Positions 23,025 through 44,925 of a DNA stretch of 64,000 nucleotides are shown in pieces. Below the pieces are notes generated by a model. The model was given only the letters and a program-made list of their open reading frames with translations, ran no database searches and had not been told where the DNA came from. Made by a program: the position numbers and the translations under genes. The DNA is from Nitrospirota bacterium. GTDB lineage: Bacteria > Nitrospirota > Thermodesulfovibrionia > UBA6902. The first letter of the stretch is position 1; each line of letters begins with the position of its first letter. The DNA is taken from assembly GCA_016234115.1 (NCBI GenBank), contig JACRHD010000035.1, forward strand, positions 1 through 64,000, read 5' to 3'.

Positions 23025-24560
23025 ATGAATAAAGTATCCATAAGAAGCCGGATCATGATAGGGAACTGGTACGTAATGCCGGTAGCCGTCCTCGTCCTCG
23101 GCATTATTTCAACCGGTCTTCTCTTCTGGACCACTGCGATCATCGAAAAGCAGCATATGAATTTTGCTTTTCTCAGCTCGCTCGAAGATCTCCAGATCAG
23201 GGCTTCAACCGCTCACTTCATGCTTGAGGAGGCGATCACACTGCAGGATACCGCTAAAGCTGAAAGGGCCATGCGTGAACTGGACCATGCCGTCAGGCTC
23301 TCTGAGGCGATCATGCAGGGCGGCAAGTCCGATCACGGCCTGTTTTTAAGTCCTCTGACGAATTCAGCGTTCAGGAAGCCGGCAGAAGACGTCAGGCGCC
23401 TGCTCTACAAATTCAGAGACATCGCGCAGGAGAGAAGGCTCGACCCCCGGTCCGCGAAAATCGGCTCGGACATCGACAAAAGCTTCGACATGGTTTTTGC
23501 CGAATTCCGTCACAGCGCCGAAACGCTGGACACGCTTTTCCAGAACAAGCAGGTGTCCTACAATTTGAAGACGGACCGTCTCATTTTCTGGATCTTCCTG
23601 GTATGGTCGCTCATCATTATCGGCGCAACAATCGGGCTCTCGACCCGGGAACTGAAGAAGAGACACGCCGAGGAAGAGCTGCTGAAGGTAAACCGGCAAT
23701 TGCTGTCAAAGACCGTAGAATTGAGAGAACACCGTGAGCACCTGTCGGAGCTTGTCGCCACACGCACTTCCGAGCTGACCGCCACGAATGAACGTCTCCG
23801 CACGGAGATCGCCGAGCGCACGCGCGCTGAAGCCGCATTGAAGGAATCGGCTCTGCAGCTCCAGTATCTTTCCGACCGGCTGATGACTGCCCAGGAAACA
23901 GAGAGGAGGCATATTTCAAAAGAATTGCACGATGAATTCGGGCACTCCCTGGCCCTTATGAAAATGAGGATAAACTCCATCAGGAACGGCTTGCCGGACC
24001 ACACACAGGGCGCGATCGAAGATGATTTTAAAGAGATCATGAGTTATATGGACGACGTCATCGAAAATGTGCGGGACCTCTCACGGGAGCTGAGCCCGTC
24101 CATACTTGAAGATATCGGCCTCACCGCGGCCCTTCAATGGCTCATCGACAACTTCAGGAAGGGTTTTGACGGCAACGTATCATCAGACCTCGAGGACATC
24201 GACCATTTGTTCTCGGGGGGCTCCCGTATAATGATCTACAGGATCCTCCAGGAAGCCCTGACGAACATCGGAAAACACTCAGGGGCGAAAAACATGTCGC
24301 TGGTCGTTCGGGAAACAGGAGACGCCGTCTCATTCCTCATAGAAGACGACGGAAGGGGTTTCAAGGCGCTGCCAAATGGAAAGTGTCCGGCAAAACCGGG
24401 CCTGGGACTCATAATTATGCAGGAGCGGGTGCGGATGCTTGGAGGGGTCCTTGAAATCAGGGCACAGGAGGGAAAAGGGACGCGCATATCCTTCAGTGTC
24501 CCGGCCGGCCTCCGGGAGAAATACGCATTGCGCAGCGAAGGCGGAAAGGACGCCAGGTAA
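23025..24560 (+). CDS. NarX-type sensor histidine kinase (HisKA_3)
   Basis: A 511-aa kinase with transmembrane helices at about 17-38 and 186-205 enclosing a roughly 145-residue periplasmic helical domain. A coiled coil follows, then the HisKA_3 box RRHISKELHDEFGHSL with phospho-acceptor H302, and a HATPase domain (QEALTNIGKHSGA, EDDGRGF, GLGLIIMQERV). Such kinases partner LuxR/NarL-type regulators; one is encoded 41 bp downstream. Together they form a complete two-component system directly upstream of the multicopper-oxidase locus. The signal is unknown. Confidence 0.93.
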   Translation: MNKVSIRSRIMIGNWYVMPVAVLVLGIISTGLLFWTTAIIEKQHMNFAFLSSLEDLQIRASTAHFMLEEAITLQDTAKAERAMRELDHAVRLSEAIMQGGKSDHGLFLSPLTNSAFRKPAEDVRRLLYKFRDIAQERRLDPRSAKIGSDIDKSFDMVFAEFRHSAETLDTLFQNKQVSYNLKTDRLIFWIFLVWSLIIIGATIGLSTRELKKRHAEEELLKVNRQLLSKTVELREHREHLSELVATRTSELTATNERLRTEIAERTRAEAALKESALQLQYLSDRLMTAQETERRHISKELHDEFGHSLALMKMRINSIRNGLPDHTQGAIEDDFKEIMSYMDDVIENVRDLSRELSPSILEDIGLTAALQWLIDNFRKGFDGNVSSDLEDIDHLFSGGSRIMIYRILQEALTNIGKHSGAKNMSLVVRETGDAVSFLIEDDGRGFKALPNGKCPAKPGLGLIIMQERVRMLGGVLEIRAQEGKGTRISFSVPAGLREKYALRSEGGKDAR

Positions 24561-24601
24561 GGCTGAAAGAGAAGCTTTGACACGATAATAAGGAGCAGAA
24601 C

Positions 24602-25249
24602 TTGGAGCACACGTATAATATAATAATAGCCGACGACCATGTCCTGTTCAGGCGCGGGTTAAGGGCCATTCTCGAAAAGAGGGCCGGCATCCGCGTGTCC
24701 GGAGAGGCCGGAGACGGCAGCGAGCTTCTGGCCATTTTAGGCAAGTCTTCCCCGCATATGGTGATCCTCGATATTTCAATGCCGAACCTCAGGGGGATCG
24801 AAACACTCCGTGAGATCAAGGAGAACTATCCGGACATAAAGGTGCTGATGCTGACCATGCACAAAGACCGGGAATACCTCCGGCAGTCCATCGCCGCGGG
24901 CGCCGACGGCTACATGCTTAAAGAAGAGGCCGACCCGGCGCTCTTTATGGCGATAGATAAGCTTCGTCAGGACAAAGTTTATGTTTCCCCCCCCCTTGCC
25001 GATGACATGTTCAAGCATTGGTCCGGCGGGCGTAAAGGCAACGCGGATATCGAGACTGAATTACTTTCAGCAAGGGAGAAGGAGGTCCTGATGCTCATAG
25101 CCGAAGGCAAGTCGAGCAGGGAGATCGCGGGTCTTCTTAATATAAGCGTCCGCACCGTGGACCGTCATCGCATCAATATCAGTGATAAATTAAATATCAA
25201 AAAAATTGCGGACCTCGTAAGATATGCAATTCAGAAAGGGTATATTTGA
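24602..25249 (+). CDS. LuxR/NarL-family response regulator
   Basis: A 215-aa regulator with an N-terminal receiver (IIIADDHVLFRRG, phospho-acceptor D in MVILDISMP) and a C-terminal LuxR-type HTH (LSAREKEVLMLIAEGKSSREIAG, VRTVDRHRINI). It starts with TTG, supported by AAGGAGC seven bases earlier and by the normal family length. It is the cognate regulator of the preceding kinase. NarL-type proteins bind heptamers related to TACYYMT; TACCCAT/ATGGGTA sites occur in the intergenic regions on the downstream side, including the one before the first oxidase gene. Confidence 0.93.
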   Translation: MEHTYNIIIADDHVLFRRGLRAILEKRAGIRVSGEAGDGSELLAILGKSSPHMVILDISMPNLRGIETLREIKENYPDIKVLMLTMHKDREYLRQSIAAGADGYMLKEEADPALFMAIDKLRQDKVYVSPPLADDMFKHWSGGRKGNADIETELLSAREKEVLMLIAEGKSSREIAGLLNISVRTVDRHRINISDKLNIKKIADLVRYAIQKGYI

Positions 25250-25315
25250 GCAATCAGCTATCAGCAGTCAGCTATCAGACAGGAGTTTTTCTTGAGCTGA
25301 GAGCTGATTGCTGAA
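25249..25315. repeat. Heptamer-built palindrome (GCTATCA family, copy 1)
   Basis: Left arm words GCAATCA, GCTATCA, GCAGTCA, GCTATCA. Right arm words TTGAGCT, GAGAGCT, GATTGCT. Together with the copy at 25849-25929 it flanks the receiver-only gene. Confidence 0.8.
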
Positions 25316-25438
25316 AACTTAAGAATGGGTAATTATACTCATGGGACCGGCGAAAATTATTTCCCATCAAAATCGATACAATCTATGAATAATGGGTACT
25401 CATGCGAATAGACACCGGGGGGCTCTGTGTGATAAGAG

Positions 25439-25843
25439 ATGACTATGGACAATTTGTACCGCATCGTGCTGGCTGACAATCATTGGTTGTTCCGGCGCGT
25501 TGTAAAATATTTCATCGACAAAATGCCGGGTATCAAGGTGGTCGGCGAGGCCGGTGACGGCGTTGAAATGCTGAATCTCGTAAATGACATGGACCCGGAC
25601 ATGGCCATCCTCGACATAACCATGCCGCACCTTAACGGCCTCGAAACAGCGCGCGCAATCGAGGACAAGCACCCCGATGTGAAAGTATTGATGCTGACCC
25701 ATCATAATGATAATGCCTATCTTCAGCGCGCTATCTCCGCCGGCGCCAAGGGATACGTGCTCAAACAAAACGCGGACAGGGACCTCTTCCCCGCCATATC
25801 GACGATCAGACAGGGCCGCGTCTGGTACCCGCAATCCTTTTGA
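25439..25843 (+). CDS. Receiver-only response regulator
   Basis: A 134-aa protein equal to the receiver half of a NarL-type regulator (YRIVLADNHWLFRR, phospho-acceptor in MAILDITMP, LKQNADRDLFPAI). It is clearly homologous to the receiver of the regulator at 24602 but stops where the linker to the HTH would begin. It may be a phosphate sink or modulator for the neighbouring kinase, or a truncated duplicate. ATG at 25439 or 25445 could be used; neither has a strong ribosome binding site. Word-built palindromes lie on both sides. Confidence 0.85.
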   Translation: MTMDNLYRIVLADNHWLFRRVVKYFIDKMPGIKVVGEAGDGVEMLNLVNDMDPDMAILDITMPHLNGLETARAIEDKHPDVKVLMLTHHNDNAYLQRAISAGAKGYVLKQNADRDLFPAISTIRQGRVWYPQSF

Positions 25844-26110: not shown

Positions 26111-27667
26111 ATGAAAAACATCAACAGACGAGACTTTCTTAAGTATTCAGGCGGAGGGCTTGCCGCCATTGTGATAGGCAGCCAGATGCCGGGACTTTCA
26201 AATCAGGCCCACGCTGCCGTCTCGGCGCTGGACATCACCATCACGGACACCATCAAGGAGATGGTGACCCACAACGCGATAAACACCGCGGAATGTTATT
26301 ACTGGGTTTTCAAGGAGGCGAGGCTCCCCGCGGATTGTCCGGGACCTATCATTTACGCCCACACCGGGGACACCGTCAATATCACGGTGCACAATACCCT
26401 GGATGAACCCCATGCGTTTTACATACCCGGGATGTTTGACAGCGGGCCGATTCAACCGGGTGACACCTTCATCGGAGCGTTTACGGCTACTAAAGGGGGA
26501 ACTCATTTGTACTACGACAACCTGAATGAACCGGTCAACCGGGTAATGGGGCTTCACGGCTGCCTCATAGTCCAGCCGCTGGTTCCTGTGGCAGGGCACA
26601 AGTTAACGCCCTATGACAATCCGACTGCTCAGGTGCAGTTGCTCTTTGACGAATTCGGCTCTGCCGCCCACTGGCCCGGCCTTGGGTGGGCAGATGAGAA
26701 TCCGGCCACGCTGACCACGGGCTCCAGGCAGGGCGTCTGGCTTCTGAGCCAGTCCAGCCCCAACCTTTTCGCTGAAGTAGGCGACTACCCGCCCGGCCAG
26801 GACTTTCCGGCTGAGGAATTCGTGCAGAGGTTCAGACGTGACGCGTTCAGCCACAACAGTCATGACCTGTCTATCGCCAGCGACATCCCCCAATACTTCA
26901 CCATGGGCGGACAGTCCGGGCACTTCTGTCACAATAATCCAGTTTCAGTCCCCATGGCGCGGGTGGGCGAGCCTTACTTGCTCCGTGTACTGAACGCCGG
27001 GCTGATGGCCCATTCCATGCATATACACTGCAACCACTTTTATATCCTGTCGGTGGACGGAGTGGTCCAGGGCGCACCAGTCGGCAATATCCCAAGCGGA
27101 GCGACCCTGCTGCGGCCCGGCCTTATATGGGTCGATACCTTCACGGCGAACCCATGGGGCGTCTCGTCTCACAAGTATGACCTTATTCTGCCCTTCATGC
27201 GGCCCCCGGATGTCCCCAATGTCAGGGGCATCGGACGAGGTGGATGCCCGGATGCCGGGAGCGCCACTATCGCAGGCGGAACTACATGGCCGCCGTATGA
27301 AGAATTTGACAGGGCCATGGGTAAGACTATCCTTGTGAGGCAGTCGCCGCTTTGCTATCCGGCCCACGACCATTCGGAGCCTTCACAGACTTCACAGGGA
27401 GGCAACTACAACTGCGGTGTGATAGGAGGACAATATATCATAGGCGACCTGAACGTTGCGCTGCCGACCTATCCCAACCCCTTCTTGGGAGGGAACCTTC
27501 CCCCTCAGACCTTCCCTATGGACGAAGACTTCGCGATGATGATATTCCGAGAGGACGGGACGATTACTTACGGGTGTAACGAGGCGGAGGTCAACGGCAT
27601 CCAGCAGGACTGCAGGGACTCGGGACTGCGTTCCCAGGACGACAGGCCCGACTTTCCACCGGTATAA
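26111..27667 (+). CDS. Multicopper oxidase subunit A1 (Tat-exported)
   Basis: A 518-aa cupredoxin-fold protein with a twin-arginine signal (NRRDFLKYSGGG, cleavage after AHA near residue 35). Copper-ligand-like motifs are HSMHIHCNHF at 301-310 (the HxxHxH of the last MCO domain) and CYPAHDHSEP at 415-424. The first-domain HxHG pair expected in a full laccase is absent; the corresponding region reads HAFYIPGMFDSG and LYYDNLNEPVNRVMGLHG. The missing motifs are in the next gene, 37 bp downstream. It likely oxidises a metal or organic substrate outside the inner membrane. The start follows GGAGGAGG. It is the first gene of the A-B-A-B array. Confidence 0.85.
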   Translation: MKNINRRDFLKYSGGGLAAIVIGSQMPGLSNQAHAAVSALDITITDTIKEMVTHNAINTAECYYWVFKEARLPADCPGPIIYAHTGDTVNITVHNTLDEPHAFYIPGMFDSGPIQPGDTFIGAFTATKGGTHLYYDNLNEPVNRVMGLHGCLIVQPLVPVAGHKLTPYDNPTAQVQLLFDEFGSAAHWPGLGWADENPATLTTGSRQGVWLLSQSSPNLFAEVGDYPPGQDFPAEEFVQRFRRDAFSHNSHDLSIASDIPQYFTMGGQSGHFCHNNPVSVPMARVGEPYLLRVLNAGLMAHSMHIHCNHFYILSVDGVVQGAPVGNIPSGATLLRPGLIWVDTFTANPWGVSSHKYDLILPFMRPPDVPNVRGIGRGGCPDAGSATIAGGTTWPPYEEFDRAMGKTILVRQSPLCYPAHDHSEPSQTSQGGNYNCGVIGGQYIIGDLNVALPTYPNPFLGGNLPPQTFPMDEDFAMMIFREDGTITYGCNEAEVNGIQQDCRDSGLRSQDDRPDFPPV

Positions 27668-27704
27668 CCTTATGATTACAAAAATATAAAAAAGGAGAAA
27701 GATT

Positions 27705-29951
27705 ATGTCATTCACAAATCCAGCAAACAGGACCTTGAGAAGGAGTGTTGCGGGCATGGAGGGTATGCACAGCAAGATGTTCGACCCCCCGACCGAGAGC
27801 CCGACAACACCTGAAGAGATGATACCGACCAACCCGGTGCCTGAGGTCATGGCAGCGGCAGGTCTTTTAGGCGTAAACCCTCCCACCGTCCCGAATACGG
27901 TGCAGCGACAGCTCATGCACGGGATGAAGCTGCCCACGTGGGACGGTCAGGATATGGAATTCTTTGTCTTCCGGGACACAGACGGCATCGATAACGGATT
28001 AGACGCCATAAATCCGGGGCAGCCTCAATTTAACCCCAAGCAGGGCAGTTTCCCCGCGCCCATCATCCGTGTGCCGCGCGGGTGCATCTATCATTGCGAA
28101 ACAGAGGGCAGCGGACCACCGCCGCATACCATACACTGGCACGGGCAGGAGCCGACGCCCATGAACGACGGTGTCGGTCACTGCTCCATGGAGCTGGGCC
28201 ACTATACTTATCAATGGCAGCCCAACTTTATAGGCAGCTATTTTTACCACTGCCACAGGAACACGATGCAGCACTTCGAGTTCGGATTGTACGGCTTTAC
28301 CATCATCGACCCGCCGGACGCTTTTTTCGCATCCATCGACTCAGTCAATCCTGATGGCTCCGTCAACCTCAATGATATTCCTATCGGCGCGGGACGGGAT
28401 GGTAAGCGCAGGGCACAGGCCAACCTTGCGGCGTTTCCACAGTTCGGACAGGACAACTTTAACCCTATTGATTCGCCGGACCCTGAGGCTGATAATTCCA
28501 ATCTCCCTGACTCGCTGAAGTTCGCCACGGACCCGCATGCCTATACCGTGCCTTATGACGTTGAAGCCCTCTGGGTCCCCGATGACCGCGACATCACTTG
28601 GTCGAACCTTGCATCAAATGCAAGGGCCACCTTCCCTGCGGAAGGAAGCCTCCCAGGGGTAAACGACAATTTCTACGGCAACGCAGGCGGCAGCGCCGGA
28701 CCCAATGATTTCTTCGCCTTCAACGACTTCCGCTCCACACACTTTTGCATCACCGGCGTTCCTGTGCCGGATGATTCAGGCGTGCTGCGGATACCGGGGG
28801 CAGGTCAATTACCCTCCGGGCTTCTTGTGCCGCCGGAGATGATGAGCGGCGTTTCAGGAGTTCAGGTCTCTATCAATGCCCAGGTAAATCAGAATATCCT
28901 GCTCAGGATACTGTGCGCGGCTTACAATAACATCAGGGTGACCTTCCCCGTGGATATAGTAATCATCGCGTGGGACGGACGGGCGCTCGGGGTGCCGCCT
29001 TACGGCAATTACAATGCGCCGGTCCTCGTGCCCGCAGGCACGCCCATCGAGTGGAGCGTTGCAAGACGCTTTGATTGCATGATCAGATCGGAGACGCCGG
29101 TAAACAGCTTTGCCTCGGTGGAGTTCATAGACACACTCAGGCGCGACGTGAGGTTTACCGCCCGCATCCCTGTCAACATCTTCGTGCCTTCGACGATCTC
29201 AGGGAAAGTGACCAAACAGTCGGGCGCTCCGATGGCCGGAGTAACCATGACCCTGACCGGTCCTGTAAACGTAACGGTGACAACGGGGGCCGACGGCAAT
29301 TACAGCATGTCCGGGCTGCCTGCAGGGCATTACGTAGTCACTCCTTCCCTTGCCGGTTTTGTGTTCGCGCCGGCAAACATAAATGTCACACTTAACAGTG
29401 TTGACGTGATCGGGGCGGACTTTGTCGCAACACAGGTCGCTTTCGCTGTCTCGGGCGGGGTGACCAACAGGACAGGAGGGCCGGCTGCGGGAGTCACAAT
29501 CAACGCCATCGGTCCCGTTAACGCGACAACCGTGACGGACGCCTCGGGTAATTACAGCCTGGCCGGTCTGCCCAACGGACTCTATGAGATCATTCCTTCT
29601 TTAGCGGGTTTCAGGTTCACTCCGTTGAGCAGGGATGTGACCATAAATAACGCCGATGTGACCGGACAGAATTTCCTGGAGACACAGGTCGCCTTTGCGA
29701 TATCCGGCAGAGTGACCGACCGCTCAGGCAATGCGCTTCCGGGGGTCACCATGACCCTGATCGGCCCTGTAAGCAAGAAGGTGTCGACCGACGCCTCGGG
29801 CAATTACAGTATACCCGGTCTGACCAACGGACTCTATGAGGTCATCCCTTCTTTGGCCGGCTTCAGGTTCTCCCCGCTCAGCAGGGACGTGACCATAAAC
29901 AATGCCGACGCGACGGGAAGGAATTTCCGGGGGGCGAGCAGAACGAGATAA
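27705..29951 (+). CDS. Multicopper oxidase subunit B1 with C-terminal carboxypeptidase-regulatory-like repeats
   Basis: A 748-aa protein starting MSFTNPANRT with no signal peptide; AAAAAAGGAGAAAG before the ATG fixes the start. It has the first-domain MCO motifs HTIHWHG (141-147) and YHCHRNTMQHFEFGLYG (181-197). After the cupredoxin region, from about residue 497, come three CarboxypepD_reg-like beta-sandwich repeats of about 80 residues (ISGKVT...GLPAGHY type), ending in NFRGASRTR. With no signal of its own, it would need to be carried across the membrane with Tat-exported subunit A1. The C-terminal domain is of a kind found on surface proteins. Function as a split oxidase with A1 is inferred. 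Confidence 0.85.
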   Translation: MSFTNPANRTLRRSVAGMEGMHSKMFDPPTESPTTPEEMIPTNPVPEVMAAAGLLGVNPPTVPNTVQRQLMHGMKLPTWDGQDMEFFVFRDTDGIDNGLDAINPGQPQFNPKQGSFPAPIIRVPRGCIYHCETEGSGPPPHTIHWHGQEPTPMNDGVGHCSMELGHYTYQWQPNFIGSYFYHCHRNTMQHFEFGLYGFTIIDPPDAFFASIDSVNPDGSVNLNDIPIGAGRDGKRRAQANLAAFPQFGQDNFNPIDSPDPEADNSNLPDSLKFATDPHAYTVPYDVEALWVPDDRDITWSNLASNARATFPAEGSLPGVNDNFYGNAGGSAGPNDFFAFNDFRSTHFCITGVPVPDDSGVLRIPGAGQLPSGLLVPPEMMSGVSGVQVSINAQVNQNILLRILCAAYNNIRVTFPVDIVIIAWDGRALGVPPYGNYNAPVLVPAGTPIEWSVARRFDCMIRSETPVNSFASVEFIDTLRRDVRFTARIPVNIFVPSTISGKVTKQSGAPMAGVTMTLTGPVNVTVTTGADGNYSMSGLPAGHYVVTPSLAGFVFAPANINVTLNSVDVIGADFVATQVAFAVSGGVTNRTGGPAAGVTINAIGPVNATTVTDASGNYSLAGLPNGLYEIIPSLAGFRFTPLSRDVTINNADVTGQNFLETQVAFAISGRVTDRSGNALPGVTMTLIGPVSKKVSTDASGNYSIPGLTNGLYEVIPSLAGFRFSPLSRDVTINNADATGRNFRGASRTR

Positions 29952-30009
29952 GACGGCTCGGGGGAAGGGTCCGGAAAATAATTTCAACTCCTGATACCCT
30001 CCCTCTGAC

Positions 30010-30037
30010 TTGACATCCGAATCAAAAGTGCTATCCT
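30010..30037 (+). promoter_or_regulatory. Promoter of the second oxidase unit (TTGACAT-N12-TGNTA type)
   Basis: TTGACA, 16-bp spacer and TATCCT with an extended -10 TGC, about 68 bp before the ATG of A2. The layout TTGACAT-N12-TGNTANNCT is shared with the promoters at 40542 and 42821. Confidence 0.65.
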
Positions 30038-30105
30038 GATTTCTAAGTAGTATTACTTTTTTCTTATCGTGCTAACTCTGTGGATTAGAAATCGGGGAGG
30101 AGACT

Positions 30106-31548
30106 ATGAACAATGAAATTAACAGAAGAGATTTTCTGAAGTACGGCATCGGCGGGGTAGCGACCATTGTAGTCGGGAGCAAAATTCCGGGGTTCCTGAC
30201 AAGTGAGGCCCATGCCGCGGTCCAAACATTAAATGTCACGATAACCGATGCGATGAAGGGCATGGTGACTGATAACGCCATAAATCCGGCAAAGTGCTAC
30301 TTCTGGGTTTACAAGATGACCGCGGACGGAATAGATATCCCCGCCGATTGTCCGGGCCCCAACATCATTGCCACGCTTGGCGACACCGTTTCACTCAGCA
30401 TAACCAATGGCCTGGACGAGCCCCACGCCTTTCACGTGCCGGGCATGTTCGACAGCGGGCCCATCAATCCGGGGCAAACAGTTACAAGGAGCTTTACGGC
30501 AAACTTGTCGGGCGCCCATCTGTATTACGACAACCTGAACAGCCCGGTGAACAGGGTCATGGGTCTGCACGGCGCGTTGATCGTCATGCCGAAGTCGCCG
30601 AAGTCCGGGCATAAATTCACGCCGTACGACAACCCGACTCCACACGTACAGGCAATCTATGACGCCTTCGGCTCTACAGCGCACTGGCCGGGCCTTGCCT
30701 GGGAGGAGGGCGATCCGTTGACGAACACACCGCCGTTCCGCCAGTATGTATGGCTGACGCATCAGGCCAGCCCGAACCTGTTTGAGGAAGTGGGGGGCCT
30801 GCCGGCAGGAGTTATCTACGACCCGCAGCAGTTCATGAACGCCTTCCTGCGGGACCCGTTCAGCCCCGACCCCAACACCAACCGGATACCGCAGTTCTTC
30901 ACTATCAACGGGCAATGCGGCCACTTCTGCCACAACAATTGTTACATTACTCCCTCGGGCCGTGTAGGCGAACCGGTGGTAGTGCACATCCTGAATGCAG
31001 GGCTGTGGACGCATTCCATGCATCTTCATGCCAACCACATGTACGTCACCAGCGTCAACGACGTGGTGCAGACAAACCCGATATGGGTGGACGTATTCAC
31101 CGTGCATCCCATGGACAAGGTCGATTACACGATCCCGTTCATGAGACCGCCGGACCTTCCCAACGTAAGAGGCATAGGCAGGCCGGACACGCCCCTCACC
31201 AGCCTCAACGGCAGACCTGTGTGGCCGCCTACCGAGGAGTTTGACGTATTCATGCCCGCGCCGGGACAGGACCTCGGCAGAGACCTTAATGGAAATATTA
31301 TCGATCTCACGCAGCGGCAGTCGCCGTTATGCTATCCCATGCATGACCATTCGGAGCCGAGCCAGACTGCGCAGGGCGGCAATTACAACTGCGGACTGAT
31401 ATCCGGGATTTATTTTGTCGGCGACCGGAACACAGCGGGGTGGATGGACTTCCCGATGGAAGAGGACTTCAGGATGATGTACGGCACCGGCATCGACCGA
31501 GGTTGCCAACACACGGATTGGTCGGCGCGGCCGTCGAGGCATGAGTGA
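30106..31548 (+). CDS. Multicopper oxidase subunit A2 (Tat-exported)
   Basis: A 480-aa paralogue of A1. Twin-arginine signal NRRDFLKYGIGG with cleavage after AHA (about residue 37), HAFHVPGMFDSG, LYYDNLNSPVNRVMGLHG, the HxxHxH motif HSMHLHANHM and CYPMHDHSEPSQTAQGG. It is shorter than A1 mainly by lacking a segment after the HxxHxH motif. The start is preceded by GGGGAGGAG. It heads the second A-B unit and has its own promoter. Same inferred role as A1. Confidence 0.85.
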   Translation: MNNEINRRDFLKYGIGGVATIVVGSKIPGFLTSEAHAAVQTLNVTITDAMKGMVTDNAINPAKCYFWVYKMTADGIDIPADCPGPNIIATLGDTVSLSITNGLDEPHAFHVPGMFDSGPINPGQTVTRSFTANLSGAHLYYDNLNSPVNRVMGLHGALIVMPKSPKSGHKFTPYDNPTPHVQAIYDAFGSTAHWPGLAWEEGDPLTNTPPFRQYVWLTHQASPNLFEEVGGLPAGVIYDPQQFMNAFLRDPFSPDPNTNRIPQFFTINGQCGHFCHNNCYITPSGRVGEPVVVHILNAGLWTHSMHLHANHMYVTSVNDVVQTNPIWVDVFTVHPMDKVDYTIPFMRPPDLPNVRGIGRPDTPLTSLNGRPVWPPTEEFDVFMPAPGQDLGRDLNGNIIDLTQRQSPLCYPMHDHSEPSQTAQGGNYNCGLISGIYFVGDRNTAGWMDFPMEEDFRMMYGTGIDRGCQHTDWSARPSRHE

Positions 31549-31616
31549 AAAAAGAGGGCATAGGTCCTATACGACTTATATGACTTATATTATTTTCTAA
31601 GAAAGGAGAAACCAAG

Positions 31617-34076
31617 ATGTCATTCGCAAATCCAGCATACATAGTTCCCCGCCAGGATGTTGTCGGGATGGAAGGGATGCACAGCAAGATGTTCGACCCG
31701 CCGACGGAGAGCCCGGCTACGCCGGACCCATTGACGCCGACCAACCCGGTCCCGGAGGTAATGGCCGCGGCAGGTCATCAGGACTTCCCGAGCACGCCTC
31801 ATACGGTCCAGCGCGACCTCTTGCACGGCATGACCATGCTCACATGGGACGGGCAGAAGAACATGACGTTCTTTACCTTCAGGGACAAGGACAATCCGGC
31901 CACAGGCGATGGGAATTACCCGGCAGCCACTATACGCGTACCGAGAGGGGTAATTTTCCACGGCGAGACCAGCGCGCAGGGGCCCCCGCCGCACACTATC
32001 CACTGGCACGGCATCGAGCCGACCCCCATGAACGACGGTGTGGGGCACTGCTCCATGGAGTTAGGCCACTATACATATCAGTGGCAGCCTAATTTTATAG
32101 GGACATATTTCTGCCACTGCCACAGAAACACCATGCAGCATTTTGAATTCGGGCTGTTCGGACTGCTCCTCATTGAGCCGCCCGACGCCTACTTCTCATC
32201 CATAGGGTCTACGAACCCGGACGGGTCCGTCAATCTCAACAACATCCCTATCGGCCATTGCAGGGACGGCAAACGCAGGACAGCAGCCGGCCTTGCCGGC
32301 TTCCCGCAGTTCCCGGGATTTAATGCGAACCCGTTGGATACTCCTGATCCGCTTGGACAATATACGACTGATCCGCATGCCCATACTGTTCCTTATGACG
32401 TGGAAGCGTTATGGGTGCTTGACGACCGCGACTCCGTATGGAGCGACATGGCGCCTAATGCGAAGGCCACTTTCCCGAAACACGCTCATATCGATTTTGC
32501 GGACCCGCTGAACAGTTCCGAGACACCCGGCGTCGACGATAAATTTCATGAGAACCCCGGCGTCAACGGTTTCTTCGCCTTCAACGACTTCAACGCCGAT
32601 TACTGGTACATCACGGGCGTTCCGGTCCCCGGGCATAAGGGAGAAACCGCCGCCATTCCGGCCGGAATAGTCATTCCCCCTGAATTAAACAGCGGGGTAA
32701 CAGGGACGCAAATATCGATTGAAGCCAAAGTAGGGCAGACTATTCTCATCAGGTGCCTCGACGCCGCCTACAATTGCACGACGATTACATTCCCCGTGGA
32801 CGTCGTGATCATCGCGTGGGACGGGCGCGCGTTAGGCGTGCCGCCTTACGGGTATAACGAGGCGTACATGGTCCCGGCGAATACTCCCATTCACACGAGC
32901 ACCGCGCGGCGCTTTGACGCCCTCATCAGGACGACCCAGCCCATGAGCTCTTTCGCCACCGTGGAATTCATCAATACGCGCGGGCAGGTCCCGGGCTTCC
33001 CGGAGGATGTCCTCATGACCGCAAAAATCCCGATCAACGTCGCCGGGGGGTTCGCGATATCAGGCACAGTGAAAGAGCAGTCCGGCCTGGCAATCCCGGG
33101 AGCGATAATGAGCGTAACAGGGCCTGTGAACCAGACCTCGGTTGCGGACTCCTCGGGTAATTACAATATAAGCGGACTGGTTGACGGCAACTATACAGTG
33201 ACGCCTTCCCTGGCCGGTTATACCTTCACGCCCCCAAGCTGCGGCATAACAATAACTAACGCTGATGCTGCCGGGTGCGACTTTATCGGAACGCAGGCTG
33301 CCGCGACTTTTGCGATATCGGGAAGAATAACCGACCAGACAGGCGCGGCCCTCGCGGACGCTGTTATTACTCTGAGCGGACCGGTAAATGGGACCGCCGT
33401 CTCTGACGCAGCCGGTAATTACATCCTGAGCGGATTGACCGACGGCGTCTATACGGCAACGCCGTCCCTTACCGGCTATACGTTTGCGCCGACGGCAGGG
33501 AACGTGACCGTCAGCGGCGCCGATGTGACCGGACAAAACTTTTCGGGGACCCTTACACCCGTAGTTTTCACTATATCAGGCAGGGCGGTTGAGCGGACAG
33601 GCGATCCGTCCATAGGGACCACCCTTACCCTGATCGGGCCTGTAAACAGGACAACGAGCGTCGATACCACGGGTTTCTACAGCTTTGCCGGTCTGCCAAA
33701 CGGCAATTATGAGATCATACCTTCGCTTGCCGGTTGCAGGTTCTCTCCGCTGAGCAGGGATGTGACCATCAATAACAGAGACGTGTCCGGCCAGGACTTC
33801 GTGTGCACGAGGACCTCTTTCGCGATATCGGGCACAGTGACCGACAGGCTCGGCGCGCCCCTTTCCGGAGTCACGATCTCCGTATACGGGACCGCGACAA
33901 AGACAGCGGTGACGGACGCCGCAGGGTTTTACAGTGTCGCAGGGCTTTCACCGGGGGATTACGAGGTCATGCCTTCCCGCAGCGGCTACAGGTTTAGTCC
34001 GTTATCCAGGGACGTGTCCGTAAGGAATGCTGATATTACAGGCAGAAATTTCAGAGGCGTCAGCAGGACGAGATAA
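31617..34076 (+). CDS. Multicopper oxidase subunit B2 with four C-terminal repeats
   Basis: An 819-aa paralogue of B1, again without a signal peptide (MSFANPAYIV, strong AAAGGAGA before the ATG). Motifs HTIHWHGIEPTPMNDGVGHC and FCHCHRNTMQHFEFGLFG are retained. From about residue 479 it carries four CarboxypepD_reg-like repeats, one more than B1, and ends NFRGVSRTR. The shared GMEGMHSKMFDPPTESP segment near the N-terminus is nearly identical in B1 and B2. It probably pairs with A2. The repeat number difference indicates expansion by recombination. Confidence 0.85.
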   Translation: MSFANPAYIVPRQDVVGMEGMHSKMFDPPTESPATPDPLTPTNPVPEVMAAAGHQDFPSTPHTVQRDLLHGMTMLTWDGQKNMTFFTFRDKDNPATGDGNYPAATIRVPRGVIFHGETSAQGPPPHTIHWHGIEPTPMNDGVGHCSMELGHYTYQWQPNFIGTYFCHCHRNTMQHFEFGLFGLLLIEPPDAYFSSIGSTNPDGSVNLNNIPIGHCRDGKRRTAAGLAGFPQFPGFNANPLDTPDPLGQYTTDPHAHTVPYDVEALWVLDDRDSVWSDMAPNAKATFPKHAHIDFADPLNSSETPGVDDKFHENPGVNGFFAFNDFNADYWYITGVPVPGHKGETAAIPAGIVIPPELNSGVTGTQISIEAKVGQTILIRCLDAAYNCTTITFPVDVVIIAWDGRALGVPPYGYNEAYMVPANTPIHTSTARRFDALIRTTQPMSSFATVEFINTRGQVPGFPEDVLMTAKIPINVAGGFAISGTVKEQSGLAIPGAIMSVTGPVNQTSVADSSGNYNISGLVDGNYTVTPSLAGYTFTPPSCGITITNADAAGCDFIGTQAAATFAISGRITDQTGAALADAVITLSGPVNGTAVSDAAGNYILSGLTDGVYTATPSLTGYTFAPTAGNVTVSGADVTGQNFSGTLTPVVFTISGRAVERTGDPSIGTTLTLIGPVNRTTSVDTTGFYSFAGLPNGNYEIIPSLAGCRFSPLSRDVTINNRDVSGQDFVCTRTSFAISGTVTDRLGAPLSGVTISVYGTATKTAVTDAAGFYSVAGLSPGDYEVMPSRSGYRFSPLSRDVSVRNADITGRNFRGVSRTR

Positions 34077-34080
34077 AAAT

Positions 34081-34163
34081 ACGGGGACCAGGGGGAAGGG
34101 GCCAGGGGGAAAATTGAATGTGCCCCCTTCCCTGACCACTGACCCCTGACCCTTGACCCTTGA
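34081..34163. repeat. Heptamer-built palindrome (CCAGGGG/ACCCTTG family)
   Basis: Left arm words CCAGGGG, GAAGGGG, CCAGGGG. Right arm words TTCCCTG, ACCACTG, ACCCCTG, ACCCTTG, ACCCTTG. Between B2 and the peroxidase-like gene. Confidence 0.8.
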
Positions 34164-34183
34164 TGCTCAAAAAGGAGATTACC

Positions 34184-37156
34184 ATGAGACGGAATTCTTC
34201 ATTCATATCGCAAGGGGCATTGTTGTTGTCGGCAATCGCCCTCATTTGCATAGCATCGGGGAGCGCGGCCTGGGGACAGATAATAGTGCCTCCGTTCGAT
34301 CTGCTCCCCCTTAACCAGTCGGCCATCCCTCAACCCCCGAACCTGTATCAATATGTCGAGAATGAGACCGTAGCTACCCAACTTGGAAAGGCCTTTTTCT
34401 GGGACATGCAGGTCGGCAGCGATGGAATAATGGCATGCGCCACCTGCCACTTTCACGCGGGCGCGGACAACAGGATGAAGAACTCGGTCAACCCGGGGAC
34501 CCGCGCCGGAGACACCACCTTTCAGGTGACCGGCCCTAACGGCACGCTCCTGCCGTCCGATTTCCCGTTTCATTTGCGTGGGGGGAGCGCTGAATTTCAG
34601 ACCGACCCCGTCATCCGGAACTTCAATGACGTTGTCGGCTCGCAGGGGGTGCGTCTCGCCGATTTTATAGACATCGTCCCCGGCTCTGCGGTTGACGACA
34701 TGGTCCCCGTTTATGATCCGGTATTCAATGTCAACGGAGTCAATACGCGGCGGGTGACTGCGCGCAATACACCGACTGTTATCAATGCCATCTTCAACTT
34801 CTATCAGTTCTGGGACGGACGGGCTCACTACATTTTTAATGGTGAAACCCCCTTCGGTCCCACTGACCCCAATGCCGGCGTGTGGTTCAATGACCCGGTC
34901 GAGGGACTCGTGAAGAAGCCGGTGCAACTGCTGTTCGGCAGCATAGCCTCCCAGGCAACGGGACCGCCGCTTGACGACATCGAGATGTCGGCAAGGGGTC
35001 GCACGTTCCCGCACTTGGGCAGAAAGTTGTTAAGCCTTGTGCCGCTGGGGAAGCAGGTCGTCAGCCACGACGACAGCTTGTTAGGCGGCCTCGCGCGCTC
35101 CGCGTTTATCCCCGGCGCGACAGGTCTTCATACCGGTTATGAGCAGTTGATAAAAGAAGCCTTTCATAATCACTTATGGGATTCCGACCAGCTTGTTACC
35201 ATGGCTCTGCCCAACGGCCGGACCGCGCAATTCACGCAGATGGAGGCGAACTTTGCCTTTTTCTGGGGGCTGGCTATCCAGTGGTACATGTCGACCCTGG
35301 TCTCGGACCAGACACCCTTCGACGAGTGGCTCGGCGGCAACAGCGCTGCCATGACCGATGAGCAGAAGCAGGGCTTTGCCCTGTTCAGCGGAATTGCCGG
35401 ATGTACGATTTGCCACGGAGGCATAGAACTGACCAATGCCTCGGTCGCAAACTCCGGATTTATCAATAATGACGTTCATTTCCTGATAGACCTGATGTTT
35501 GTCGCGGACGGCACGCAGGTCATTTACGATACGGGCTTTAACAACACCGCTGTGACCCCGACAACCGAGGATATCGCAAGGGGCGGGACCGCGCCGTTCA
35601 TCAACCCGCTGACGGGCCAGTTTTATCCGCTTTCAGTCTCGCACATGTCCGAGCTTTCCGCGAGCCATCTGCTGCCCTTCCCTGCGCCTATATTGCCACC
35701 CGGGGTCCCGGCGAACATGCAGCTCAACGCAAACGGCGCCTTTAAAGTCGCAGGCCTGCGGAACGTAGAGCTGACAGCTCCTTTTTTTCATAACGGCAGC
35801 ATTATGGATATGGACGATATGATGGACTTCCTGATCCGGGGTGGAAACTTCCCGTTGGAAAACATCCATGACCTGGACCCCGACATCGGCTCCGGGATAC
35901 CATTTATGGTTGGCAATGAGCCCATGGAGCACGCGATAATCGAATTCATGAAATCCCTTACCGACCCTCGTGTCATAATCCAGGCGGCGCCCTTCGACCA
36001 TCCGGAGCTCCTGGTCCCCGAAGGCGACCCGGAGGTGCTGCGCAGAATACCGGCCACGGATTCCAACGGGGTCCCTGTTCCCTCGCAGGTCCTCACGATC
36101 AACGCGTTCATTACCCCGACCATGTCCCCGGACCAGACCCTTTCCGGGACCGTGGAGGCCGGGCTGGTCCCTGAAGTCACGGTCAATACATCCGCCGCTG
36201 CCGGCCCTGTCGCCGTCAACGGCATTGAATGGAGCGTCCTTATCAGCAACATGCCTGCCGGGGTCAACGAGGTCACGGTAAGCGTCACGGACAACTCCGG
36301 CGTGCTGACGTCGCTGACGGACACGATTTACGTCATCCTCAACGACCCGCCTTCAATCACATCAGTCCCTGTTGTTGCCGTTGATGAGGGAGACAACTAC
36401 CTTTATCAGGTCTCCGCCTCCGACCCGAACGAGGGAGATGAGCTTGCGTTTTCGCTCGATACCGCGCCTGCGGACATGACAATCGACGGCGTTACAGGCC
36501 TGATCGAATGGCCGGTCCCCTTCTTCGGGCAGACCGGGACCCACCCGGTGTCCGTGCGCGTGACGGACGCGGGAGGCCTGTCCGCGACACAGACCTTCAG
36601 CATCACGGTCATGCCTCTGCTGCATGCCCCGGTCATTACCTCAAGCCCTGTGACTACGGCGTTGGCCGGACAGCTTTACGCCTACCAGGTGAAGGCCTCC
36701 GATCTCAACCCCGCTGATCTGCTGACGTACTCGTTCGACGCGTCGCCTTCCGGGATGACGATCAACAGCGCCACTGGACTGATACAGTGGACCCCGACCC
36801 TGTCTCAGGCCGTAACGCACCCGGTGTTCGTGCGTGTGACTGATTCAAGCGGATTGTTCTCTACCCAGAGCTTTACAATTTCCGTCGGCGTCAGCGCTTT
36901 CAGCAATATTTCGGGCACGGTGACGGACAGGAACAACGCGCCGATGCCGGGCGTTACCATGACCCTGATCGGCAAGGTAAACAAGACTGTCACGACGGAC
37001 CCGTCCGGCGGATACATATTTACGGGGCTGCCCATCGGCACTTATGAAGTCATCCCTTCGCGTACCGGTTACAGATTCAACCCCGTGAGCAAGGACGTGA
37101 CCATAAACGGCGTCAACAGGGTCCAGAATTTCAAGGGAGGGTCGAGATCGAGATAA
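34184..37156 (+). CDS. MauG/di-heme cytochrome c peroxidase-like protein with Ig-like and regulatory-like C-terminal domains
   Basis: A 990-aa exported protein with a Sec signal (RRNSSFISQGALLLSAIALI). Two c-type heme motifs, CATCH (85-89) and CTICH (about 412-416), with LGKAFFWDMQVGSDG before the first, place it in the bacterial cytochrome c peroxidase/MauG superfamily. From about residue 690 come two He_PIG/cadherin-like repeats and a final CarboxypepD_reg-like domain ending NFKGGSRSR. The start is set at the ATG preceded by AAAGGAGATTACC; an earlier in-frame ATG lies in the repeat. It may exchange electrons with, or modify, the oxidases upstream. The domain fusion is unusual for this superfamily. 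Confidence 0.88.
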   Translation: MRRNSSFISQGALLLSAIALICIASGSAAWGQIIVPPFDLLPLNQSAIPQPPNLYQYVENETVATQLGKAFFWDMQVGSDGIMACATCHFHAGADNRMKNSVNPGTRAGDTTFQVTGPNGTLLPSDFPFHLRGGSAEFQTDPVIRNFNDVVGSQGVRLADFIDIVPGSAVDDMVPVYDPVFNVNGVNTRRVTARNTPTVINAIFNFYQFWDGRAHYIFNGETPFGPTDPNAGVWFNDPVEGLVKKPVQLLFGSIASQATGPPLDDIEMSARGRTFPHLGRKLLSLVPLGKQVVSHDDSLLGGLARSAFIPGATGLHTGYEQLIKEAFHNHLWDSDQLVTMALPNGRTAQFTQMEANFAFFWGLAIQWYMSTLVSDQTPFDEWLGGNSAAMTDEQKQGFALFSGIAGCTICHGGIELTNASVANSGFINNDVHFLIDLMFVADGTQVIYDTGFNNTAVTPTTEDIARGGTAPFINPLTGQFYPLSVSHMSELSASHLLPFPAPILPPGVPANMQLNANGAFKVAGLRNVELTAPFFHNGSIMDMDDMMDFLIRGGNFPLENIHDLDPDIGSGIPFMVGNEPMEHAIIEFMKSLTDPRVIIQAAPFDHPELLVPEGDPEVLRRIPATDSNGVPVPSQVLTINAFITPTMSPDQTLSGTVEAGLVPEVTVNTSAAAGPVAVNGIEWSVLISNMPAGVNEVTVSVTDNSGVLTSLTDTIYVILNDPPSITSVPVVAVDEGDNYLYQVSASDPNEGDELAFSLDTAPADMTIDGVTGLIEWPVPFFGQTGTHPVSVRVTDAGGLSATQTFSITVMPLLHAPVITSSPVTTALAGQLYAYQVKASDLNPADLLTYSFDASPSGMTINSATGLIQWTPTLSQAVTHPVFVRVTDSSGLFSTQSFTISVGVSAFSNISGTVTDRNNAPMPGVTMTLIGKVNKTVTTDPSGGYIFTGLPIGTYEVIPSRTGYRFNPVSKDVTINGVNRVQNFKGGSRSR

Positions 37157-37238: not shown

Positions 37239-40200
37239 ATGAACCGTCAGAAGAATATATTACTATCACTATTGACGGTCTTTTTCGCACTGGCGCAAGC
37301 GTCCGTCTATGGAGCGCAGATGGCGCCGGTCAGCGGAGAGATCGAACAAATCTATATTAATAACGCCGGCGACCACTGGTCCGGCGGCGAGATAGTTGTG
37401 GGAGGACAGCACGTGATCCTTCCCCGCAATCTGCTTATCGACCTGCCCGCAAACAGGCTGACCCTGAAGCAGCTCTTCGATCAGGCGCCCGCGTCATGCG
37501 TGACCGCCGGTGAGAGCGGTCTCGCCAAGGGAGATTCATGCAACACAAGCGGCGCAGGCGGGATTGCGACCATATCCGCAAATATTACGAATAACGGCGA
37601 CGTCATCGCCGGCGACGTCCTGATCGACAAGGGCATAGAAGCGGTGACCGGACGCGTCAGCTATATCGACTACGCCGACGGTTACTTCCGCATCAACGGC
37701 ATACTGAACGACCCGACCACCGGGGTCATGGTGCGACTCAACGACCCCACGGGACGACATACCGTGCAGCAGGGATTGGGCTGCGCGGCGGGAGCGCCCA
37801 ATTGCAGCCCTGACCCGCGCTTCACCCTCGATCCGGACAATTACACCAATACCTTCAGCACCGGCTATCCGTTTTGTATACCGAGCACAACGCAGCGCGC
37901 CTTCACGGACGTGCTCCAATTAGGGACGACAACGGCCCAGGCCCTGGCCGACGGCACGGGCGACGTCCTGTGTCCGGTCACAAACAGGACCGTCAACGGC
38001 GGGGCGCCCGTAGATGATTCGAGACGCTTTGCGCCTGTCATGATCGGCGACAGCGTTACAGCCGAAGGCAATTTTGAGACAGTCAACGGCGTGCGGTTTT
38101 TGTCCACTCATACCATTATGGTGGGAACGGCGCTGACGACGAAGACCGATCCTGCCCAGCCGGATTATATCTTCCTTGCTGAGGTGGAAGTAGACGCGCC
38201 CGGCTTTCAGAACCAGCGCGTACGCACGCTCTTTATCGGCTTCGCAACTCTCGCCCCGGCAGACGTCCTCATCTGGTCGCTGCACCGGGATCCGGTCACA
38301 AACGAGGCGCATGAGTTCCCGCTGGCGACCGTAAGCGGATGTGATATAGCCGCGGGAGCGGGCACCTGCGGCAATCAGGGTATTGTGGGCGCCGGAGCTA
38401 ATATATGGAAAATCCGTCACGATGTAGACTTTATCCAGGGCGCAGATGCGAAGCTCGACCCCTGCGCCCATCTCAGGGCCGACGCGAGAATGGGCAGCGG
38501 CATATGCCCGCTGGGCGGTACCCCCGCCGAGATGTTCAGCGTCCTGAGCCCCATCCCCCATGAGATACAGGCAAGGACCGGACACAGCCTGGCAAACCCC
38601 GGACTCATTACAATCGACATTGCCGGCAATGAGGCGACCAACGGACAGTATCTCTTCCCGTTCGGAATGAACCTCGGCGGCGTCTCGACACCCGAGATGG
38701 TTGAGATCGACCTTAATGCGCTTGCCATTCCGTTCAGCTTCTCCGGGATACCGTGGAACCTTGACAGGCGTCTCTCTCCGGGCGGCTGCAATGGTCCCTG
38801 CGAAGCGGCCCCTCAGCCACTTGACCCGTTCCCGTTTGAAGGGCCCAACATGGACCCACGCACACTGGCAAGCGTGCCTCAAGGCGCTTATAACGACCCT
38901 AATTTTACGAACACCTCACTCACAAGGGCAAGCAACAGGATATTATCTTACGTAAGCGGAACGCCCTTTCAGGGAGGCAAATTCAATTTCGACGGCGACA
39001 ATACGCTCCTCGCATGGCCGCCTGCGGACCCGGCTGCCGTAGGAATAATACCCACGGTCCCGTTGACCTTCGCTTGCGGCGCGCCTGTTGTCAATCCCGA
39101 CGCCCCTCAGATCATTTCAACGCCTGTATCTTCAGCCTTGACGGGGCAGCTTTACAGTTACCAGGTGCTTGCTACGGACCCGAACCCCGGAGATACGATT
39201 TCATATTCGCTGGATGTATCTCCGGCTGGGATGACTATCAACAGCGCGACCGGATCGGTCCAGTGGACCCCCTCCGCGGCCCAGGCCGGAGTGAACCCTG
39301 TGACTGTTCGGGCGACAGACCAGGGCGGCCTGTTCGCAGCGCAAACCTTTACCGTGACCGTGGTTGTCCAGCAAAGCCCGCAGCCGCCGGTCATAACGTC
39401 CACACCTGTGACCACGGCAACAGCCGGACAGCTTTTTAACTACCAGGTGACCGCTTCCGATCCGAACCCCGGCGACACCCTGACGTACTCACTCGACGCG
39501 GCCCCTGCGGGAATGATAATCATCAGCTCAACGGGTCTGCTCCAGTGGGCCCCCCAGGCGGCGCATGCCGGGACACACCCGGTGACCGTACGGGTGACCG
39601 ACACGGCCGGACTCTTCGCGGTCCAGTCCTTCTCAGTTACAGTGCCCATAGTCCTGCACCCCCCTGCCTTCACTTCCATTCCCGTGACCTCGGTAGTAGT
39701 CGGGCTGCTCTATAGTTATCAGACGACCGCTGCTGATCCGAACGCGGCGGATGTCCTGACGTTCTCCCTGGACGCTGCTCCCCTGGGGATGACGATAAAC
39801 AATCTTACGGGACTGATAGAGTGGACCCCCGCGCTGGACCAGGTGGGCCCTCAGGTTGTAACGGCAAGGGTGACCGATGCAGGAGGATTGTTCGCAACAC
39901 AGAGTTTCAGCATTGCCGTGTCGCCACTTCTGCAGGCCCCGGTCATTACCTCAAATCCTGTAACTAATGCGATTGCGGGACAGCCTTATGCCTACCAGAT
40001 GACGGTTTCCGATCTCAACGCCACAGACGTGCCGACGTACTCGCTTGACGCGCCCGTGCCTGCCGGAATGACAATAAACAGCGTCACCGGATTGATCCAG
40101 TGGACCCCCACACTGGCGCAGACCGGCGCGCAGGCGGTGTTCGCGCGCGTTACCGATTCAGGCGGCCTGTTCTCCACACAATCGTATACCGTTACTGTCG

Positions 40201-40469
40201 GCATCAATGCGCTGAACAATATCTCAGGCACGGTGGTTGACAGGAACAACGCGGCCTTGTCAGGCGTCACCATGACCCTGATCGGTCCCGTCAACAGGAC
40301 TGTCACTACGACCGCATCCGGCGGATACATTTTTACAGGGCTGCCCATCGGCACTTATGAAATCATACCTTCTCTTACCGGTTACAGATTCAATCCGGTG
40401 AGCAAGGATGTGACCATAAACGGAGTCAGCATGATCCAGAATTTCAGAGGAGAATCAAGAACGAGGTAG
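37239..40469 (+). CDS. Large exported protein with four Ig-like repeats and the shared C-terminal domain
   Basis: A 1076-aa protein with a Sec signal (MNRQKNILLSLLTVFFALAQ). The N-terminal roughly 600 residues are rich in Gly, Asn and paired Cys and match no family I can name. Four He_PIG-type repeats of about 90 residues follow (pattern VITS-PVT-A-AGQLY-YQV). The final CarboxypepD_reg-like domain ends NFRGESRTR. RBS AAAAAAGGAG. Followed by a rho-independent terminator. Likely an extracellular or surface-attached partner of the oxidase/peroxidase proteins; function unknown. Confidence 0.85.
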   Translation: MNRQKNILLSLLTVFFALAQASVYGAQMAPVSGEIEQIYINNAGDHWSGGEIVVGGQHVILPRNLLIDLPANRLTLKQLFDQAPASCVTAGESGLAKGDSCNTSGAGGIATISANITNNGDVIAGDVLIDKGIEAVTGRVSYIDYADGYFRINGILNDPTTGVMVRLNDPTGRHTVQQGLGCAAGAPNCSPDPRFTLDPDNYTNTFSTGYPFCIPSTTQRAFTDVLQLGTTTAQALADGTGDVLCPVTNRTVNGGAPVDDSRRFAPVMIGDSVTAEGNFETVNGVRFLSTHTIMVGTALTTKTDPAQPDYIFLAEVEVDAPGFQNQRVRTLFIGFATLAPADVLIWSLHRDPVTNEAHEFPLATVSGCDIAAGAGTCGNQGIVGAGANIWKIRHDVDFIQGADAKLDPCAHLRADARMGSGICPLGGTPAEMFSVLSPIPHEIQARTGHSLANPGLITIDIAGNEATNGQYLFPFGMNLGGVSTPEMVEIDLNALAIPFSFSGIPWNLDRRLSPGGCNGPCEAAPQPLDPFPFEGPNMDPRTLASVPQGAYNDPNFTNTSLTRASNRILSYVSGTPFQGGKFNFDGDNTLLAWPPADPAAVGIIPTVPLTFACGAPVVNPDAPQIISTPVSSALTGQLYSYQVLATDPNPGDTISYSLDVSPAGMTINSATGSVQWTPSAAQAGVNPVTVRATDQGGLFAAQTFTVTVVVQQSPQPPVITSTPVTTATAGQLFNYQVTASDPNPGDTLTYSLDAAPAGMIIISSTGLLQWAPQAAHAGTHPVTVRVTDTAGLFAVQSFSVTVPIVLHPPAFTSIPVTSVVVGLLYSYQTTAADPNAADVLTFSLDAAPLGMTINNLTGLIEWTPALDQVGPQVVTARVTDAGGLFATQSFSIAVSPLLQAPVITSNPVTNAIAGQPYAYQMTVSDLNATDVPTYSLDAPVPAGMTINSVTGLIQWTPTLAQTGAQAVFARVTDSGGLFSTQSYTVTVGINALNNISGTVVDRNNAALSGVTMTLIGPVNRTVTTTASGGYIFTGLPIGTYEIIPSLTGYRFNPVSKDVTINGVSMIQNFRGESRTR

Positions 40470-40492: not shown

Positions 40493-40523
40493 GGTCTGCG
40501 CCGCAGGGCGCAGGCCTTTTTTT
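40493..40523 (+). terminator. Rho-independent terminator
   Basis: Stem GGTCTGCGCC-gcag-GGCGCAGGCC followed by seven T. The same hairpin recurs at 42757-42788. Confidence 0.9.
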
Positions 40524-42756: not shown

Positions 42757-42788
42757 GGTCTGCGCCGCAGGGCGCAGGCCTTTTTTTT
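42757..42788 (+). terminator. Rho-independent terminator (duplicate)
   Basis: Stem GGTCTGCGCC-gcag-GGCGCAGGCC followed by eight T, identical in stem and loop to the terminator at 40493. Confidence 0.9.
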
Positions 42789-44192: not shown

Positions 44193-44290
44193 ACCCGTTT
44201 GAGCCGCTTGACGGCTTGAGCCGCTTGAGCCGCTTGAACCGCTTGAGGCGCTTGAGCCGTTTGAACAGTTTGAACGGCTTGAACGGTTAT
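44193..44290. repeat. Nonamer tandem repeat array
   Basis: Degenerate words GAGCCGCTT, GAACCGCTT, GAGGCGCTT, GAGCCGTTT, GAACAGTTT, GAACGGCTT follow each other at 9-nt steps (one 8-nt step). The array ends 20 bp before the next start codon. It is open in one plus-strand frame but there is no reason to think it is translated. Confidence 0.8.
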
Positions 44291-44311
44291 TTGAAAGGAA
44301 GTGAGATAGTT

Positions 44312-44866: not shown

Positions 44867-44925
44867 ATTACAATTCGTTTAAAATGTCCGGCGGGCAGTC
44901 AACCGTCATCAGCATGGAGGCATGT

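Follow-up and report, generated by a model that had tools for sequence, protein, structure and literature searches.

Four consecutive plus-strand genes (26111-34076) on contig JACRHD010000035.1 of a Nitrospirota bacterium, designated here A1, B1, A2 and B2 after the two families A and B to which they belong, most likely encode two different subunits of a single exported, hetero-oligomeric two-domain multicopper oxidase (2dMCO), a reading to which we assign a probability of roughly 80%. Such an enzyme would have arisen by gene duplication and complementary loss of copper ligands, would hold its trinuclear copper cluster at the interface of the two subunits and would be exported as one complex. 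The 64,000-nucleotide stretch of this contig that was analysed is called the window below. Within it the four open reading frames (ORFs) are separated by gaps of only 37, 154 and 68 bases, each has a good ribosome site of its own, and all four products contain multicopper oxidase domains (Pfam Cu-oxidase). A1 and A2 are 59% identical and B1 and B2 64%, from which it follows that the duplication of the A-B unit, recognized already in the initial annotation of this DNA, is old.

Complementary copper ligands on paralogous proteins

Of the trinuclear copper site, the A proteins of the window have just the C-terminal half (HSMHxHxNH and HDH) and the B proteins just the N-terminal half, together with a complete type 1 (T1) copper site (HTIHWHG and HCHx5HxxxGL). 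The ligand motifs used by A are missing from B, and the positions of B's ligand motifs read HAF-[YH]-[IV]-PG and YYDNLN-PVNR in A. The number of HxH motifs is exactly two in A1, in A2 and in B1; B2 has two extra HAH motifs that occur in no other B. The same partition was found in all 17 two-gene A-B pairs that were collected by searching relatives and then the phylum: A always carries HSxHxHxNH and P[MA]HxH, B always carries HTxHxHG and HCHx5HxExG, and no additional HxH is conserved in either protein. Thus, in every pair the four His-x-His pairs that supply the eight histidines of a trinuclear cluster are reached by A and B jointly and by neither alone. Because every ligand is invariant across the 17 pairs, the pattern is not a chance one. 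The initial annotation had assigned last-domain motifs to A and first-domain motifs to B and had proposed that the two jointly hold the four pairs; both proposals are borne out by these motifs (Table 1), and a complete site within A or B alone, which would have spoken against it, is excluded at the sequence level in all 17 pairs. A frameshift or split-gene artefact was also considered, and was dropped in view of the separate intact ORFs in the 17 pairs and the separate ribosome sites in the window.

Beyond what had been noted before, the whole T1 site also resides on B. The His, Cys, His and axial Met or Leu of this site lie in domain 1 of B, the axial residue being Leu in the long forms of the family (A of 467-518 aa, B of about 430-490 aa excluding tail repeats) and in four of the short forms (A of 379-425 aa, B of 354-399 aa), and Met in L037, L060, L066, L067 and L063. 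In A, the second His pair encloses Asp, Gly, Cys or Ile, and no T1 His follows downstream, which leaves A without a complete T1 site. The self-contained T1 site of B, and the loss from A of the second T1 His and, in most members, of the T1 Cys, would be compatible with B acting as a blue-copper electron carrier without any trinuclear cluster, either alone or with A as an inert export or anchoring pseudo-enzyme. We consider this very unlikely, as HWH, HCH, HxH and MHxH are needless in a carrier, yet they are invariant on both proteins in all 17 pairs. Copper nitrite reductases of the NirK type have fewer His per motif and read HCA in place of the HCH of B. That A-B is a NirK-like reductase with one type 2 copper between its subunits, a notion that draws on the presence of nitrite reductases among the best sequence matches, is hardly tenable in view of HTIHWHG and HCH in B and of HxH twice in A, which together make up the eight-His trinuclear set rather than the NirK pattern.

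Hhalign brings both domains of the A and B profiles into colinear register (99.1%, E 1e-18). In this alignment HAF-x-[IV]-PG of A faces HTIHWHG of B, YYDNLN of A faces HCHRNT of B, and HSMHLHANH of A faces a ligand-free stretch of B. Judged by these profiles, A and B are two-domain paralogues, each without the ligands that the other has kept. The description of the system as a "split" multicopper oxidase in the initial annotation accordingly stands insofar as the half-sites are on separate proteins, but it needed correction in another respect: because A and B align in order over both domains, they are not the two parts of a three-domain enzyme cut in two. In profile comparisons with solved structures, B matched 3g5w best and 2zwn next, with identical domain 1 ligands; A matched the nitrite reductase 2dv6 best and 2zwn second. 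Domain 2 of 2zwn reads HAMHSHGH and HDH, as in A, although the final HDH stretch, taken by itself, aligns weakly. Both 2zwn and 3g5w are structures of what we take to be type C 2dMCOs. The 2dMCOs are trimers in which the cluster is shared by two protomers, and in type C the T1 site is in the N-terminal domain (PMC13151041). These matches point to a type C-like ancestor of A and B, from which the two would have been derived by duplication and complementary loss.

Export signals and the proposed complex

Both A1 and A2 carry a twin arginine, and a twin-arginine translocation (Tat) motif, RRx[FV], is present in 16 of the 17 A proteins, the exception being the distant L063. Conversely, 16 of the 17 B proteins have no hydrophobic N-terminus or signal peptide, and each of these is the partner of an A with a Tat motif, so that the distribution typical of Tat hitchhikers, with a signal on one partner only, is seen in 16 of 17 pairs. 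Neither B1 nor B2 has room for a preceding signal, as each ATG follows an in-frame stop at a distance of 18 or 36 bases, the Shine-Dalgarno sequence lying between the two. The twin-arginine signals of A and the absence of a signal from B, as originally described, are thereby upheld, and the search for a hidden signal in B yielded one only in L063. TatC is encoded in the window genome (G000), in G003 and in the Methanoperedens genome that carries a pair. In several A proteins (L034, L036, L038, L035, L039, L037 and L060), direct reading of the sequences reveals a lipobox-like Cys after the Tat motif. Hydrogenases and formate dehydrogenases provide established examples of signal-less subunits that hitchhike via Tat (PMC10924467).

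We propose that the ancestor was a type C 2dMCO of identical subunits, in which the trinuclear cluster was built between domains 1 and 2 of neighbouring subunits. After duplication, A would have lost the copper ligands of domain 1 and kept those of domain 2 (HSxHxH and MHxH), and B would have lost those of domain 2 and kept those of domain 1 (HTxHxHG and HCH) along with the T1 site, such that four His of A and four His of B would build one cluster at the A-B interface. Electrons would pass from the substrate to the T1 copper in B, and O2 would be reduced at the shared cluster. Because B has no signal peptide, it would fold with A in the cytoplasm and ride on the signal of A through the Tat translocase; in several relatives A may also provide a lipid anchor. 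The function of the complex is probably an extracellular or periplasmic oxidation.

Distribution, co-inheritance and genomic setting

A-B pairs occur in the Nitrospirota-like phylum, in a Methanoperedens archaeon and on alphaproteobacterial plasmids. The window genome has four pairs (two in the window, L034 and L035), and further pairs are found in G003 (L036, L037), G002 (L038), G034 (L039), G291 (L056), G176 (L057, L060) and G182 (L058). In G373 (L059), another A comes after the pair, with its B truncated by the end of the contig, and G074 holds the distant pair L063. The archaeal pair is that of Methanoperedens nitroreducens Mnv1 (L033), where a 1691-aa oxidase-like protein is encoded after the pair (L033, 11294-16369). 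Indioceanicola profundi has pairs on two plasmids (L066, L067), in which A is annotated as "hypothetical protein" and B as "multicopper oxidase domain-containing protein"; public annotation overlooks the A-B system. No relatives were found in the viral contigs searched, nor was there a match in PHROGs, and a survey of 60 genomes of the order of Methanoperedens returned no further A, only weak matches that look like ordinary oxidases.

In agreement with the strongly conserved gene order claimed at the outset, A lies directly upstream of B on the same strand in all 17 pairs, with a gap of 12-236 bp. Among 395 genomes of the phylum, a full-length A is present in seven (G000, G002, G003, G176, G182, G291 and G373), and the same seven hold a full-length B adjoining A; G074 adds the distant pair. 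The B scores in these 395 genomes are bimodal: full-length proteins reach at least 288 bits, two contig-end B fragments of G373 score 142 and 173, and all other oxidases fall below 100. A genes commonly occurring without B, a pattern that would have undermined the original proposal, were not seen in this set, the exception being a truncated A in G165; the only other A without B is the plasmid-borne one of pTC1 discussed below. The identity matrices of A and B are correlated with r = 0.95, which exceeds all 5,000 permutations, and within the two subfamilies the correlations are 0.75 (p 0.0002) and 0.96. With 66% identity of its A to A2 and 64% of its B to B2, the Methanoperedens pair is as close to this copy as A1 and B1 are, or closer, a pattern that suggests joint transfer of A and B. 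The exact placement of this pair is weakly supported in the tree.

Several observations weigh against the proposal of a co-exported A-B heteromer. In the distant pair L063 both A and B have a Sec-like signal; judged from this pair, co-export does not extend to the whole of the wider group, and the lack of a signal in B is specific to certain lineages. The Paenarthrobacter plasmid pTC1 carries an A without an intact B, the latter being a deleted remnant, about 7 kb from A, without the copper-site region. On an Arthrobacter plasmid, the A frame reads on into the N-terminal sequence of B (...GRQIPGPTLRLT), and B resumes in a different frame (GDLFNGTVKPSKRVHTIHWHG) owing to a single frameshift at a run of four G, which indicates an A-B fusion, now broken or mis-sequenced; its A is without a signal. 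AlphaFold2, run on the very shallow alignment afforded by the window and L033 sequences only, gave a pLDDT of 30.3 for the Methanoperedens A-B read-through with the window rows and 33.9 for B2 alone, both too low for interpretation. Finally, biochemical data on any member of the A or B family were not found.

B1, B2 and the products of the next three genes share a C-terminal domain of about 80 residues that ends in SRTR or SRSR; its sole other occurrence in the genome is in a 2119-aa frame on contig C59. The domain may serve all five proteins in targeting or assembly, and because it is shared with three secreted neighbours, it suggests a common extracellular destination of these proteins and B. 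A consensus scan detected terminator-like plus-strand sites with an identical stem-loop after consecutive genes (40505-40518 and 42769-42782); the same scan detected none between A1 and 34160, and a weak match at 35768 lies inside the next gene.

A secreted family of uncharacterised proteins with a WYQD/YYQD region at the N-terminus is represented in the window (40661-42733) and at L034 (10988-13300), L036 (1-681), L068 (8512-10482) and L096 (11842-13698). Its members adjoin A-B pairs in several phyla; in Skermanella the neighbours are a CotA-like oxidase and an SCO protein. On two actinobacterial plasmids A has a gene for an Nramp/MntH metal transporter on its upstream side (L068, 2310-3560; L069, 3078-4328); this mntH gene was the sole hint at Mn(II) as a substrate, a candidate that we dropped. 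Downstream of the oxidase cluster, a protein named by eye as C39-peptidase-like (43488-44189) is accompanied by small secreted proteins and an outer-membrane-like protein (42906-43376, 44216-44866 and 44884-45909, likewise named by eye).

Table 1. Positions of the A and B genes, their ligand motifs and neighbouring genes in the window
Feature	Position	Strand	Remarks
Histidine kinase, LuxR-type response regulator and receiver-only protein, upstream	23025..25843	+	Homologues of the histidine kinase and response regulator are found next to A genes at L059 and L061
A1, first A copy, with Tat signal and two cupredoxin domains	26111..27667	+	Domain 1 devoid of copper ligands, half of the trinuclear site in domain 2; TIGR01409 above cut-off
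A1 twin-arginine motif RRDFL	26126..26140	+	RRx[FV] form, as in the A of every pair but L063
A1 HSMHIHCNH	27011..27037	+	Residues 301-309; domain 2 His-x-His pair
A1 PAHDH	27359..27373	+	Residues 417-421; second His-x-His pair, Asp at the T1 Cys position
B1, two cupredoxin domains	27705..29951	+	No signal peptide; three C-terminal carboxypeptidase-regulatory-like repeats
B1 HTIHWHG	28125..28145	+	Residues 141-147; T1 His and domain 1 His-x-His pair
B1 HCHRNTMQHFEFGLYG	28248..28295	+	Residues 182-197; T1 Cys, His and axial Leu, and His-x-His pair
A2, second A copy	30106..31548	+	Tat signal
A2 HSMHLHANH	31012..31038	+	Residues 303-311
A2 PMHDH	31336..31350	+	Residues 411-415
B2, second B copy	31617..34076	+	No signal; four C-terminal repeats
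B2 HTIHWHG	31992..32012	+	Residues 126-132
B2 HCHRNTMQHFEFGLFG	32115..32162	+	Residues 167-182
Di-haem peroxidase/MauG-like secreted protein	34160..37156	+	Shared C-terminal domain; homologues beside the L034 and L036 pairs
Secreted protein with Ig-like repeats	37239..40469	+	Shared C-terminal domain
Secreted protein with "YQD" N-terminal region	40661..42733	+	Shared C-terminal domain; homologues beside the L034, L036 and Arthrobacter plasmid L068 pairs
Shared C-terminal domain in five genes	29196-29948, 33057-34073, 36908-37153, 40221-40466, 42485-42730

Comparison with known oxidases and exported complexes

The type C 2dMCOs represented by 2zwn and 3g5w resemble A and B in having two cupredoxin domains per chain, which Pfam and the profile alignments, both based on sequence only, find in A and B alike, and in carrying T1 in domain 1, a feature retained by B only. 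In these enzymes the cluster lies where domain 1 of a subunit meets domain 2 of a different one, as proposed here for A-B. They consist, however, of a single kind of subunit with both half-sites on one homotrimer-forming chain, whereas A and B have one half-site per chain and are the products of two genes.

Six-domain oxidases such as MnxG and ceruloplasmin are similar to A-B in having kept one cluster and lost other potential sites, and the bacterial ones place this cluster between domains 2 and 3, as would A-B. This likeness raises the question of whether A-B could be a shortened, fissioned MnxG-type oxidase, with domains 1-2 having become A and domains 3-4 B, for which the single reading path of A and B on the Arthrobacter plasmid and the Cu-oxidase domain of the 1691-aa protein after the Methanoperedens pair might also be cited. 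We regard such an origin as unlikely. Six-domain oxidases are single chains, and the bacterial ones carry T1 in domain 2 (PMC3600357), whereas here it is in domain 1 of B, i.e. domain 3. Furthermore, domains 5-6 are absent, each gene contributing two domains and each pair four rather than six, and the solved structures that match best are those of two-domain oxidases and of copper nitrite reductases. If A-B is instead the hetero-oligomeric 2dMCO that we favour, it would represent a living intermediate in which each chain is without the complementary half and the losses can still be read in the sequences. The three- and six-domain oxidases are believed to stem from two-domain ones and to have retained a single cluster while losing others (PMC3600357).

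The Mn(II) oxidase complex MnxEFG likewise includes a multicopper oxidase that requires partner subunits, although MnxG is its sole multicopper oxidase, MnxE and MnxF being small proteins for which no homologues are known (PMC5622069). A laccase-type enzyme with two different chains is found in the heterodimeric fungal laccase POXA3. To our knowledge, the small subunit of POXA3 contributes no ligands to the cluster, in which it differs from either chain of the proposed A-B enzyme. It is a stabilising protein (PMC10741624). A heteromeric oxidase with a shared cluster was not found in the open-access literature searched, subscription journals lying outside this search, and neither was a multicopper oxidase described as a Tat hitchhiker in the open-access papers searched.

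In the Tat hitchhiker complexes of NiFe hydrogenases and formate dehydrogenases, one subunit has the Tat signal and its partner is carried along, as would be the case for A and B; tyrosinase MelC1/MelC2 is another complex of this kind. The present proposal, if true, would extend Tat co-export to copper oxidases and would raise the question of whether the cluster, or at least the complex, needs to be pre-assembled in the cytoplasm. The full combination, namely a cluster contributed by two gene products, folded before export, moved as one Tat unit and housed in a heteromer derived from homotrimeric 2dMCOs, with an operon spread among Bacteria and Archaea, seems to us reasonably probable. Since sharing of a site between chains is already a property of the homotrimeric 2dMCOs, that sharing as such is not the new aspect of the A-B system; the new aspect would be the heteromery with complementary loss, together with co-export.

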